Part shown: positions 22,595 to 28,588 of the stretch, piece after piece | How positions within the stretch are numbered: position 1 is the first letter of the stretch | Layout: each line of letters begins with the position of its first letter | NCBI GenBank assembly: GCA_002070275.1 | Contig: MWCY01000030.1 | Span: 1 to 34,999, forward strand | From: Candidatus Hydrogenedentes bacterium ADurb.Bin170 | Lineage (GTDB): Bacteria; Hydrogenedentota; Hydrogenedentia; Hydrogenedentales; CAITNO01 | Direction: 5' to 3' | Length of the DNA stretch: 34,999 nt | Translations under genes and position numbers: made by a program | The notes under the pieces: model-generated | What the model was told of the DNA's origin: nothing | The model's input: the letters and a program-made list of their open reading frames with translations, nothing else | The model's database searches: none

Positions 22595-22900
22595 GCGAAT
22601 TCTCCTGTTGCAGTGCTGGCAACAGCATTGCTTTCACAGTAAGCGCCTGGCGATTTTTTGACTTTTGTTTGTTTGTCTCATAAGTATAGGTAAAACGTCC
22701 CAAAAAAAGAAATAGTTATAAAAGAGAATGTTTTTGCTGCTACGGCACTGCGTGCACGGAATGACAACACCGGGCCGGGGACGGAACCACGAATGAACAC
22801 GAATGAATACCAGGTGGCTGAGACAAATAACGATGTTGCAGAAATCTTGCTCCGGGGTAAGATCCCTGCAGTCGGGCTAGCACTTCCGCCTTATGAAACC
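22595..22900. other. Leader of the lipase-like gene; no gene seen
   Basis: On the minus strand TATACT (22688-22683) is a possible -10 for the lipase-like gene, without a good -35. The 10-base unit CACGAATGAA is tandemly duplicated at 22788-22807. The small plus-strand reading frame at 22793-22984 ends in the repeat element and is not a gene. Confidence 0.4.
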
Positions 22901-22935
22901 GCCATTCCTGCACACCCCGTCATTCCTGCACACCA
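22901..22935. repeat. Tandem half-repeats left of element copy B
   Basis: Two units, GCCATTCCTGCACACCCC and GTCATTCCTGCACACCAC, precede the terminal repeat with an 18-base period. They point the same way as the units left of copy A, but the linker sequence (CACACC) differs from the C-rich linker of copy A, so the two arrays expanded separately. Confidence 0.65.
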
Positions 22936-23138
22936 CGTCATTCCTGCGAAGGCAGGAATCTTAATCAGGGTATGGACGTCTTGATCTGCACATCGGTCTG
23001 TTCCACACCAAAGACTGCAAGACATACAAACACAAAATAAGCCTAACTTTTAAAGACTTTCCCGCGCAGTTGACAGCAACAGCATGACCCTTATAAATAA
23101 CATCTCGCGTTAAGATTCCTGCCTGCGCAGGAATGACG
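22936..23138. mobile_element. MITE-like element, copy B
   Basis: Bases 22936-22964 and 23110-23138 form inverted repeats matching at 28 of 29 positions and identical, except for one base, to those of copy A at 67-290. The total length is 203 bp against 224 bp for copy A. The interior shares GGTATGGACG near the left end, CACCAAAG and ACATACAA in the middle, and ACCCTTATAAATA close to the right end. Both copies keep the same order and orientation of these blocks, so the interior is part of the unit and not chance sequence between two REP hairpins. Confidence 0.7.
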
Positions 23139-23260
23139 CCGGGGGAGGCAGGAATGACGAGGGGGGAGGCAGGAATGACGAGAGGGGAGGCAGGAATGAC
23201 GGAGGGAGGCAGCCATGACGCCTGAGGGTGGACGTGACGGCGGAAGGGAGAAATGACAGT
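23139..23260. repeat. Tandem AGGAATGACG repeats right of copy B
   Basis: GGCAGGAATGACG recurs three times with a purine-rich linker (GAGGGGGGA type) at about 21-base spacing, near 23145-23200. More degenerate units (CATGACG, CGTGACGG, AAATGACA) follow up to about 23260. The orientation is inverted relative to the units at 22901-22935. Copy number is higher here than on the left. Confidence 0.7.
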
Positions 23261-23551
23261 GCCATGTGTAGGACTGGTGGAGGGGGTATGTCTCAGGGCA
23301 TCACTCCGCTGTGAATTCGAATGACTGTCTTCGTCGTAACACGCTTGTGTGCCAATAGGTCGATTGGCGTTCCCAGGGGAGCCGCTTTCAGTCTTTTATA
23401 TTGAACAGGCGATTATCCGCGTTTGTTGTCAATAGTGAATCCGCCAGCCTGATTTGGCGCAGGATAAACAAGTCTCTGATAATAAAAAGCGTAGTCAGTA
23501 CAAGCGCACAATCTTCGAAACGCGCTGAACGCACTTTTTCACTCTTCGCTC
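23261..23551. other. Intergenic, nothing recognised
   Basis: No gene, terminator or promoter could be supported. GGCGTTCCCAGG at 23366-23377 matches 406-417 next to copy A; CGTTCCCAGG is part of a repeat seen widely in environmental bacteria, so its presence near both copies may only reflect insertion into repeat-rich spacers. Confidence 0.4.
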
Positions 23552-25497: not shown

Positions 25498-25545
25498 GAA
25501 AGATAGCCACGAAGGCACGAAGGGCACGAAGATTCATGAAGAAAA
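25498..25545. repeat. Left inverted repeat of the GxxExxY unit
   Basis: This 48-base arm pairs with 25948-25995 at 43 of 48 positions. It carries an internal 9-base rhythm: GCCACGAAG, GCACGAAGG, GCACGAAG. The gene inside reads toward this arm and stops 12 bp short of it. Confidence 0.85.
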
Positions 25546-25556
25546 CTACTTGTTGT

Positions 25557-25928
25557 TCAGAGCACCATTCTTTTTATGCCAGCTTTTAATAAAGGGACAT
25601 TAAAATTTATAATCAATCCGGTGTTTTTTCCGGACGGTTTTAAATAGCTAAGCAATTGAGCCTGATACAAAGGCAGAATCGTTTCTGTACTTTTCAATTC
25701 AACAATCAATTCATCTTCGACTAAAAAATCTACACGATACCCTCCCTCTATAGTCATCCCTTTATAGCAAACAGGGAGCGAAGTCTCTCTTGTAAAATGA
25801 AGCCCGCACAGCTCCATCTCATGTGCCAAACATTTTGAATAAACACTTTCAAGCAGTCCAGGTCCTAAATGCCTGTGAACTTCTACAGCACAACCGATTA
25901 CTTTATTTGACCATCGATCAAATTCCAT
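25557..25928 (-). CDS. GxxExxY family protein, PD-(D/E)XK nuclease-like
   Basis: Protein of 123 residues of the GxxExxY family (Pfam PDDEXK_3). The name-giving motif is GLLESVY (Gly24, Glu27, Tyr30), within HLGPGLLESVY. Nuclease-fold residues follow: Asp67 in RVDFLV, Glu77 and Lys79 in IVELKS, then Gln91 and Tyr95 in QLLSYLK. All PD-(D/E)XK positions are intact, so it may be an active metal-dependent nuclease. The biological role of the family is unknown. The start at 25928 has AAGGGAAGGG immediately upstream. The gene fills a unit with 48-bp inverted repeats and has AT-rich composition unlike its neighbours. It is complete, with no frameshift. Confidence 0.92.
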   Translation of the reverse strand: MEFDRWSNKVIGCAVEVHRHLGPGLLESVYSKCLAHEMELCGLHFTRETSLPVCYKGMTIEGGYRVDFLVEDELIVELKSTETILPLYQAQLLSYLKPSGKNTGLIINFNVPLLKAGIKRMVL

Positions 25929-25947
25929 TTTCCCTTCCCTTCTCTTT

Positions 25948-25995
25948 TTTTCTTCGTGAAGTTTCGTGCTCTTCGTGCCTTCGTGGCTCTCTTTC
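25948..25995. repeat. Right inverted repeat of the GxxExxY unit
   Basis: Reverse-complement partner of 25498-25545 (43 of 48 positions). It ends 11 bp before the stop codon of the next minus-strand gene at 26007, so the unit sits tightly against the GT-C gene without breaking it. Confidence 0.85.
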
Positions 25996-26006
25996 TGTGG
26001 GCATGA

Positions 26007-28445
26007 TCACTCGGCAAGCGTCACCATCCCCAGCGGTGCCACATCACCCCATTGCCCCAGTTTTGTGTCAAAGAAGCGCAGATCCATAGCGTATACGGCA
26101 GGTCTCGTGCGAAGCGGCACCCTGGCAATCACATAATCCCCGCCGGGCCACAGAGAAGTTACCGGGCTGGGCAGTACCGGCCAGCGGAAAATGCCCGCCT
26201 GTCCTGTCGCACTGCCGAAAGTCTGTGCCATGGTCCGGGCATCCACCTGCCCCTGAACAAGAATCCGCCAGTCCCGATCTATGATCCCGGTTGTACGGAA
26301 AATCAGATGTAGGAGGTAAAGCCCCTCCCCTTCCCTGCTCACACCGCATCCTGCATAGCCCACGGATTCATTCATCCATCTGATGGAACCCATCCCCTGA
26401 AAAAGCGTCTCCAGTCTGGATGCCGCTGCCTGCTGCAGTTCCTTCCGGAGCCCGAGCCACTCTTTCGAATGGCGCAGCCGGTACAGAGCGGTCAGATCCA
26501 GATTCAGCACATCCTCCTCCTTTTCCACCCGGGGCAGTGTTTCCTCTGTGCGCCGTGCGAGGACACCGAAGTATTTTTCACCCACCATGCCGTGGCGCCG
26601 GTCGTGGAAACGATCCACCAGTTCAAAACCCTCCTGTGCGAAAATATCCAGCCAGCGCTGTTCCTCTTCCGGCGTCCGGTATTCCGTTGTATAAACAGCG
26701 TAGTCGGCAAAGACCAGCATGGGTAAAATTTCTTCGATGTCGTGCGACCAGCCGAAATGACGGAAGGAGCGCCAGGGCTGAAGCGTCTCCGGCAGATCCC
26801 GGCGTTTCCAGGGATTACGGCGGCCCGGCAGATCAGGGCGGTACCGGGCTTCCTCGAGCCCCATGCCCCGCATATTCACCCGCACATAATTCGCTTCAAT
26901 GCCGCTGTAGGGGCGCACCTGTTCTTCTTTGAGCATGGCAAGAAAGATGCGGTCTTTGTAGCTCATCACTGCCGGTGCCCCCATGCCGCTGTATGCATAG
27001 GAGCCGTGAAGTTCTTCCTTGTACCACCAGAGCCCGGAATCGTCATAGCGCGCCATCATTTCCGGATCAGGTTCAAGCGGCAGAGCACGGGCGCATAACG
27101 TGCCGTAGGGTGCCACTGTGAGGTTGCCGTACTGAAAGAGAAGCACTGCCAGATAAAGCCCCTGCAGCAACGCCGCCGCCCTTCTTTCAGGCAGCATCAG
27201 AAAAGGAAGGGCGGAGAACAGTGCCAGTGCGGGCAGCGCCTGAAGGGCATAGCGGGGCGTGGCAAAACTCAGCACCAGTGTAAGCAAAAACCAGCTGCCC
27301 AGCAGCCACAAAAACAGCAGGCGTATCCCCGGATTGCGCCGGAAGCGACGGAAAACAACGGCACAGAGCATGCCTGCCACGCCTGCCAGAAACATGGGCA
27401 GAAACACGCCGTTATTAATCACCATCACGGGATAACGCCGCCAGGGGATTTTCCCTGCATCTTTTTCCGCAGCAGCAGGCGCCGGAGTTTCCGGATGGCT
27501 TGCCATTGCCGTCCGCGTGGATGCTGTATCATCTGCCGTCTTTTCCGGCGGTGTCTTCTGCCGGGGTCGGGGCGCTGAAACAGAAGATGTACGGTCTTTA
27601 TTCTTTGACAGCCAGGCGATCGGACTTCCCGTCTGGCGGATCAGCTCCGACGCTGTCCAGTACCGGTAAAAATGCTCACCGTGACTGATGTACCAGGGTG
27701 CGGCAATGGCAATTGTAACGGCAAGGATCAACGCTGCATTCATCAGAAGCCGTGCAAGCATCTTTCTGTTCCGCCTGCTTTCCAGAAGCCCGGTCACAAA
27801 AATGAAGAAGGCAGGCAAAAAGTAATACAGGGGACTGGTTATCCGGGCAAGAAGCGCAAAGCCGTTGAGCAATCCGAAAAAGAAGGCGCTGCGTGTACGG
27901 GTCAGAGACCGGCTGTGCAGCAGAACCGCCACCGCCCAGACGCAAAGCACCATGGACAGGTAGTCTGTCATGAAATAGCGGGATGCCGTGTAGATAAGCG
28001 GGGTAAAACTGACTACTGCCGTGCTGTAAAGAGCGTGGCGCCGGGAAAGAAACTTTCGGGCAATCAGATAAACCCCCGGAAGCATAAGGAGAAAGAAGCA
28101 AGTGCTGCAGAAAGCAAGCACGTCGGTGCTGCATCCGAAAAGCGCCATCACCAGCGCCCCTGTAAGCGGCAGCAACGGCGGATGAACAGGACTCTCGGAC
28201 TCAACCTCCACTTCCCAGGCATTCCGGAGGCGCTCAGCCAACGAGACATTTTCGTTTACCGGGAACAGTGCATCATAATAACTGCGGGCACTGAGCATAT
28301 GCAGTTCTTCATCACTCTGGATGCCGTGGTTGTCCGCACGAAGCCACCAAAGATTCATCACCAGGTGAAAAAGAAGCAGCAGAATCAGAGCAAAGTGCTC
28401 AAGACGAAAGCCCGAAGGGCGCAGTGCCGAAATCAATAAATGCAT
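26007..28445 (-). CDS. GT-C membrane glycosyltransferase (PMT/ArnT-like)
   Basis: Integral membrane protein of 812 residues. The start at 28445 has AAGGAT eight bases upstream; a longer frame from 28586 is not supported. The first periplasmic loop has the catalytic acidic pair (QSDEELHML) and SPVHPPLLPL, as in PMT/ArnT-type glycosyltransferases, which use polyprenyl-phosphate sugars. About ten to twelve membrane helices span residues 15-490. A Pro/Ala/Thr-rich insertion (about 278-332) interrupts the helices, probably on the periplasmic side. A soluble C-terminal part of about 300 residues follows (WYKEELHGSYAYSG, RHFGWSHDIEEILP). It is divergent from the GT2 gene at 28640. The acceptor is unknown. 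Confidence 0.88.
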   Translation of the reverse strand: MHLLISALRPSGFRLEHFALILLLLFHLVMNLWWLRADNHGIQSDEELHMLSARSYYDALFPVNENVSLAERLRNAWEVEVESESPVHPPLLPLTGALVMALFGCSTDVLAFCSTCFFLLMLPGVYLIARKFLSRRHALYSTAVVSFTPLIYTASRYFMTDYLSMVLCVWAVAVLLHSRSLTRTRSAFFFGLLNGFALLARITSPLYYFLPAFFIFVTGLLESRRNRKMLARLLMNAALILAVTIAIAAPWYISHGEHFYRYWTASELIRQTGSPIAWLSKNKDRTSSVSAPRPRQKTPPEKTADDTASTRTAMASHPETPAPAAAEKDAGKIPWRRYPVMVINNGVFLPMFLAGVAGMLCAVVFRRFRRNPGIRLLFLWLLGSWFLLTLVLSFATPRYALQALPALALFSALPFLMLPERRAAALLQGLYLAVLLFQYGNLTVAPYGTLCARALPLEPDPEMMARYDDSGLWWYKEELHGSYAYSGMGAPAVMSYKDRIFLAMLKEEQVRPYSGIEANYVRVNMRGMGLEEARYRPDLPGRRNPWKRRDLPETLQPWRSFRHFGWSHDIEEILPMLVFADYAVYTTEYRTPEEEQRWLDIFAQEGFELVDRFHDRRHGMVGEKYFGVLARRTEETLPRVEKEEDVLNLDLTALYRLRHSKEWLGLRKELQQAAASRLETLFQGMGSIRWMNESVGYAGCGVSREGEGLYLLHLIFRTTGIIDRDWRILVQGQVDARTMAQTFGSATGQAGIFRWPVLPSPVTSLWPGGDYVIARVPLRTRPAVYAMDLRFFDTKLGQWGDVAPLGMVTLAE

Positions 28446-28484
28446 GAGATATCCTTTTTCGCTTCCCTGATCCGGGAATAAAGT

Positions 28485-28493
28485 ACTATAGCA
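28485..28493 (-). promoter_or_regulatory. Extended -10 candidate for the GT-C gene
   Basis: On the minus strand TGCTATAGT reads as an extended -10 (TG-N-TATAGT, five of six to consensus). No good -35 is present, as is allowed for this promoter type. The distance to the start at 28445 is about 40 bases. Confidence 0.4.
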
Positions 28494-28588
28494 AAAAGGT
28501 ACGAAAGGAAACAGAGAATCTTCAGCCACCGGGTTGCATGTGCGCCGACGAAAACCGGGCACTGCTTCATGGTAAAATACCTCCATGA

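Follow-up and report, generated by a model that had tools for sequence, protein, structure and literature searches.

A gene for a protein of only 123 residues that is closely enclosed by inverted repeats raises the question of whether gene and repeats form one element and, if they do, which part of it moves. The locus lies in the window, by which we mean the whole stretch of 34,999 nucleotides that was analysed; its features and those of its neighbour are as follows.

25557-25928, minus strand: GxxExxY gene (TIGR04256 / PF13366 PDDEXK_3), 123 aa, assigned from the ORF, profile matches and an AF2 model
25948-25995, minus strand: 5′ arm, upstream of the GxxExxY gene; minus strand, read toward the gene, GCCACGAAGGCACGAAGAGCACGAAACTTCACGAAG
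25498-25545, plus strand: 3′ arm, downstream of the GxxExxY gene; plus strand, read toward the gene, GCCACGAAGGCACGAAGGGCACGAAGATTCATGAAG
25508-25541, plus strand: four 7-nt cores of the 3′ arm, at 25508, 25516 and 25525 (CACGAAG) and at 25535 (CATGAAG), with spacings of 8, 9 and 10
25952-25985, minus strand: four cores of the 5′ arm, with plus-strand starts at 25979, 25971, 25962 (CACGAAA) and 25952
26007-28586, minus strand: PMT_2-type glycosyltransferase gene, neighbour of the unit; the two genes also have adjacent orthologues in genome G013

The original prediction described a complete GxxExxY gene inside 48-bp inverted repeats that match at 43 of 48 positions and leave gaps of 11 and 19 nt to the gene, all of which was confirmed: the arms are 48 nt each, 90% complementary and 402 nt apart. 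Their inverted-repeat alignment score was 71, while shuffled flanks reached 25 at most. A 9-base CACGAAG rhythm had also been proposed; the cores are real, but their period is not fixed at 9, the steps being 8, 9 and 10 nt in both arms, and those of the 5′ arm, counted from its outer end inward, mirror those of the 3′ arm. The AT-rich composition ascribed to the unit holds when it is compared with its neighbours (GC 0.37-0.42 around the unit versus 0.51-0.60), but it is not confined to the unit, since low GC reaches ∼500 nt further on the 25.0-25.5 kb side.

The window protein matched TIGR04256 (GxxExxY) with an E-value of 3.5e-42 and 143.5 bits (cut-off 35) over positions 3-116 of the 116-position profile, and PF13366 (PDDEXK_3) with an E-value of 1.8e-39 and 135.1 bits (cut-off 22); by both curated models, the gene is classed as a full-length member of the GxxExxY / PDDEXK_3 family. 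These models name the protein only. All nuclease positions had been said to be intact, and E27, D67, E77 and K79 are indeed present, as is an unbroken GxxExxY motif; among 43 homologues (the window protein included), E27, D67 and K79 are invariant and E77 nearly so. We take these residues to fit the E...D...ExK active site of the PD-(D/E)XK superfamily, with a predicted catalytic role. An AF2 model of the protein (pLDDT 92.9) has the order helix-helix-beta-meander-helix-strand. Its best Foldseek match was the Cas4-like SSO0001, followed by lambda-exonuclease-type enzymes, none of them at E ≤ 0.001, and SSO0001 was again the best match with VIA-align (Z 9.6, 100 residues, rmsd 4.4 Å). The other nearest solved folds were PD-(D/E)XK nucleases, among them Hjc and exonucleases of the lambda type, with restriction enzymes also near. 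These matches point to a PD-(D/E)XK fold of the RecB/Cas4/lambda-exonuclease type and would fix the superfamily, not a function; nuclease activity is predicted. A sequence search of the PDB with the window protein gave only chance matches (E ∼0.3-0.5), and a curated profile search matched it to no transposase family. At two loci of other genomes (L045 and L052), arm sequence seems to be translated into the predicted GxxExxY N-termini (HRDTECTE and EPRNTQNTRKD), so that some annotated starts may be wrong.

GxxExxY matches occurred in 58 of the 68 genomes of the phylum, with up to nine per genome. At ∼110 loci, the 330 nt upstream of the gene were aligned to the reverse complement of the 330 nt downstream, and a score of at least 30 was taken as positive. 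Inverted arms were thus found at 94 of 108 GxxExxY loci, as against none of 28 PhdYeFM antitoxin loci that served as controls in the same genomes. The presence of the gene beside similar repeats in other genomes, as the original prediction had it, was seen directly within the 68 genomes, and the view of gene and arms as one unit held up. Each arm is a series of 7-nt cores (CACGAAG, CACAGAG, CGCAGAG, CGCAAAG, CACGGAA, CACAGAT, ACAGGAT, CGCGAAT and others), mostly three in number. Both arm orientations occur, toward the gene in 70 cases and away from it in 19. Two loci, L076 (G054, contig C223) and L083 (G023, contig C182), carry two tandem GxxExxY genes with arms around each; at L076 both proteins are identical over the domain, which suggests local duplication through the arms. 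Outside the phylum, in Bacteroidota and Gemmatimonadota, clear CACAGAG-type arms flank GxxExxY in records of Bacteroides finegoldii and Bernardetia, and in Gemmatirosa full CGCAGAG hairpins lie on each side of the gene. For the alphaproteobacterium Sphingomonas the arm score was not above that of shuffles, and a CGCGAAG-type upstream arm was recognised by eye. In Sphingomonas parapaucimobilis (L306, 1471-1899) the GxxExxY ORF is placed between fabD and fabG and stops 2 nt short of the latter; CGCGAAG cores occur upstream of the ORF and probably also inside its own 3′ end. Inspection of the GxxExxY records of Fusobacteria, Treponema, Persicobacter and Prevotella revealed no clear arms, and a contig search with the window protein alone as query found only two relatives, both in Bacteroidota.

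The type of core follows the protein and not the genome in which it resides. When 87 genes were labelled by core (11 states) and the labels were placed on the protein tree, 21 changes were required, compared with a minimum of 51 and a mean of 59 in 1000 shuffles. Pairs of GxxExxY genes in the same genome shared a core in 6 of 81 cases, versus 12% of all pairs, and the copies within a genome mostly come from different branches and cores, not from recent identical copies. Between genomes, the fraction of pairs with a common core rose as the proteins became more alike: it was 1% where they are 30-40% identical, 65% at 60-70% and 88-100% above 70%. Linked inheritance accounts for part of this correlation. 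In between-genome pairs, however, the median alignment score of the arms was 24, versus 10 for DNA of equal length 100 nt outside; the arms persist over protein distances at which flanking DNA is saturated, which suggests that they are under constraint.

Arms are also dispersed at sites of their own. Exact triple CACRRAG arms numbered 726, in 50 of the 68 genomes, and the reversed pattern was found only a handful of times. As to whether arms travel with the gene, the answer differs on its two sides: the gene is rarely found without arms (94 of 108 loci are armed), but arms are common without the gene, those 726 comparing with 201 GxxExxY genes of all types in the 68 genomes. When one arm per genome was sampled, 27 of 30 had no GxxExxY gene within 1.5 kb; many of the sampled arms formed doublets, most commonly convergent, and singlets occurred too. 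Across genomes, the number of GxxExxY genes correlated with the number of arms (rho 0.57), and arms of the matching core were in excess where the matching gene type was present, with gene-type labels resting on about half of the GxxExxY genes (the loci sampled). The median number of CACRRAG arms was 14.5 in genomes with a CACxRAG-type gene and 3 in those with other types only (p = 0.002), while, of the genomes with an ACAGGAT-type gene, 7 of 10 contained ACAGGAT triples, versus 11 of 58 others (p = 0.002); when the two flanking arms per gene were subtracted, the ACAGGAT count test gave p = 0.04. G067 has 15 ACAGGAT arms and no CACRRAG arms. Exceptions to the match are G030, which holds 73 arms and no detected GxxExxY gene, G027, and G024 and G058, which bear ACAGGAT arms without a sampled ACAGGAT-type gene. 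Most of the genomes surveyed are drafts in fragments, with a good number of arms at the ends of contigs. In G030, CACAGAG arms ∼120 nt apart enclose no gene and make up an element of ∼195 bp that is both tandem and dispersed (L257, L407 and contig C4).

These gene-less copies bear on the original prediction of a minimal mobile or selfish unit and on a rival reading, a minimal autonomous transposon in which the nuclease would move its own gene, the arms would be terminal inverted repeats and the gene-less copies would be MITE-like deletion derivatives. The compact arms-gene-arms anatomy agrees with such a transposon, as do the arm-spacer-arm copies that resemble MITEs, including the tandemly amplified element of G030, and the units that stand in tandem, gene included, in G054 and G023. 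The history of the gene's sites does not. In G013, the one further genome sampled from the genus, an orthologue of the window unit occupies the corresponding site: the same glycosyltransferase is the neighbour, the GxxExxY gene is split over two contig ends and the flanking CACGAAG arms are partly eroded. Over 88 shared codons, the two proteins are 77% identical, with dN ∼0.16 and dS 1.5-3.2 (NG86); the resulting dN/dS of ∼0.05 is only approximate because dS is near saturation. The codon comparison places the window gene under strong purifying selection, and this together with the shared site argues that the unit is not freshly hopping, so that a fresh transposon was rejected. In a second genus (g21), one site is also shared: the sister species G034 and G035 have arms and gene there, G037 has arms ∼110 nt apart and no gene, and G036 only degenerate traces. 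Shared sites in two genera would speak for vertical descent of GxxExxY, yet its protein branches are mixed across hosts. The copies in one genome are, as noted above, mostly of different branches and cores. GxxExxY was found on only 8 of 72,556 plasmids, no copy was found in phages, and viral contigs queried with two sub-alignments gave no relatives. Unlike MITEs and small IS, moreover, the unit encodes no recognised transposase, its arms consist of repeat cores and not of a unique TIR, and the gene copies are site-stable at the two sites compared. With the arms mostly gene-less as well, the minimal mobile unit did not survive, and an autonomous transposon is unlikely.

The arms behave otherwise. 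Three sites of G013 (C78, C102 and C58) carry solo arms that are missing from the matching G000 sites, and at a fourth (C172) the arm is probably missing from G000 too, other repeats intervening; the junctions at these sites are not alignable, the intergenic DNA being too diverged at genus distance, and no precise insertion junction or target duplication emerged. Since the site of the gene is kept while solo arms are species-specific, arms come and go more quickly than the gene does. Arms and gene-less hairpins seem, then, to disperse, while their partner, the gene, mostly stays resident.

A similar arrangement is known for REPINs, in which an enzyme gene is flanked by inverted short repeats and the repeat is dispersed as inverted doublets and singlets; the RAYT gene is mostly inherited vertically, and presence of the matching gene goes with a larger number of repeats (PMC8049555). 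The GxxExxY gene, too, is enclosed by a dispersed repeat in inverted orientation, which occurs as hairpin doublets and singlets; the gene is mostly site-stable, and repeat type is matched to gene type. It is not a RAYT, for which an HUH Y1 transposase is the defining enzyme: GxxExxY is a predicted PD-(D/E)XK nuclease. The arms also differ, being 7-nt cores at 8-10 nt spacing where REP is a palindrome, and a single genome can hold as many as nine copies of the gene, with different core types, versus one. The reading we favour, by analogy and with a probability of roughly 55%, is that of a REPIN/RAYT-like two-part repeat system in which the PD-(D/E)XK protein would act on its own arms and disperse gene-less hairpins. 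On this view the nuclease gene lies inside a pair of inverted repeat copies, each built from some three to four 7-nt cores spaced by 8-10 nt. The protein would recognise its own cores, probably as a folded hairpin or as single-stranded DNA, and would nick or process the arms so recognised. Arms and arm-spacer-arm hairpins without the gene would then occasionally be copied into further intergenic positions, and the gene copy itself would mostly stay put, maintained by selection. We infer these acts of binding, cutting and nuclease-driven dispersal from the anatomy, the repeat-protein association, the conservation and the dispersal observed above.

The same anatomy could instead matter at the level of RNA, as in the intervening sequences (IVS) of 23S rRNA: the arms would pair in a transcript around the ORF, the stem would control expression as an RNase III site or a stabiliser, and pairing would preserve the repeats. 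The arms are complementary within each locus, and in the IVS of Coxiella terminal inverted repeats form a 28-bp stem around an S23p ORF (PMC4990558). The IVS with its S23p/four-helix-bundle ORF resembles the window unit in having a small ORF inside inverted repeats and a unit of ∼430-500 nt, but the window unit lies outside rRNA, its protein is unrelated and its arms are tandem cores that are dispersed elsewhere. An Rfam scan of the window gave no match and no rRNA, and a 23S rRNA intervening sequence was rejected for this unit. The 23S_rRNA_IVP genes of the same genomes, which also lie inside inverted tandem repeats in 24 of 27 cases, agree with an RNA-level role; pairing alone, however, leaves unexplained the exact core of each branch, the dispersed solo arms and the occurrence of both arm orientations, and we regard such a role as improbable.

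A resident host module for defence or DNA repair was weighed too, in which the nuclease would read the repeat as an operator or self-mark and the repeats would spread by ordinary recombination. Purifying selection, the stable site and a fold close to those of Cas4, restriction enzymes and lambda exonuclease would suit such a role. Against it, there is no fixed partner gene, each annotated locus having neighbours of its own (radA, ade, fabD/fabG and others), and gene-less hairpins that track the gene type are not accounted for by a module of this kind, which is quite improbable. Coincidence, terminators or an assembly artefact can hardly be the answer: inverted repeats are common as terminators and contig ends are where many of the arms lie, but arms also occur in finished plasmid records of other phyla, and a chance inverted repeat was rejected by the control loci (0 of 28) and the shuffle tests.

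Should the REPIN/RAYT-like reading be true, it would represent a second system of this kind with an unrelated enzyme, implying that partnerships between host and repeat arose more than once; it would give a role to GxxExxY, a large and sporadic nuclease family, and explain the dispersed CACGAAG/CACAGAG/ACAGGAT repeat families. The pairing of repeat code to protein is a directly testable specificity map. A broader proposal, on which we would stop somewhat short of even odds, is that GxxExxY and its arms are a widespread class of intragenomic repeat propagation, independent of HUH/RAYT, in which each PD-(D/E)XK nuclease lineage would have its own repeat code (7-nt core and spacing) and keep up a stock of gene-less hairpins, in several bacterial phyla; the IVP genes could form a second such class with another code. 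Among the open-access papers searched, none linked GxxExxY with arms or dispersed repeats, and the novelty of the association is provisional.

Some further repeats were encountered along the way. The inverted tandem repeats around the PF05635 four-helix-bundle (23S_rRNA_IVP) genes outside rRNA (L156-L185, 30 genomes) have units that differ from the GxxExxY cores, among them GGGTCTA, AGGCTTT and AATTGAC. The genome to which the window belongs, surveyed by searches and in ∼1.25 Mb of contigs, has one intact GxxExxY gene and one remnant, the latter on C52 with a degenerate CACGAAG/CACGAAT repeat adjoining its start, and solo arm-like sites on C104, C87, C6, C41 and C3. Positions 22899-23440 of the window are occupied by a multi-copy repeat of GTCATTCCTGCGAAGGCAGGAAT type, with tandem runs of 18 and 21 nt, which has far more than 100 matches in this genome, many at contig ends. 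A further dispersed element (GCCAAT...ATTGGCGTTCCCAGG) at 23349-23377 recurs in the same genome and beside arms in G013 (L376-L378).
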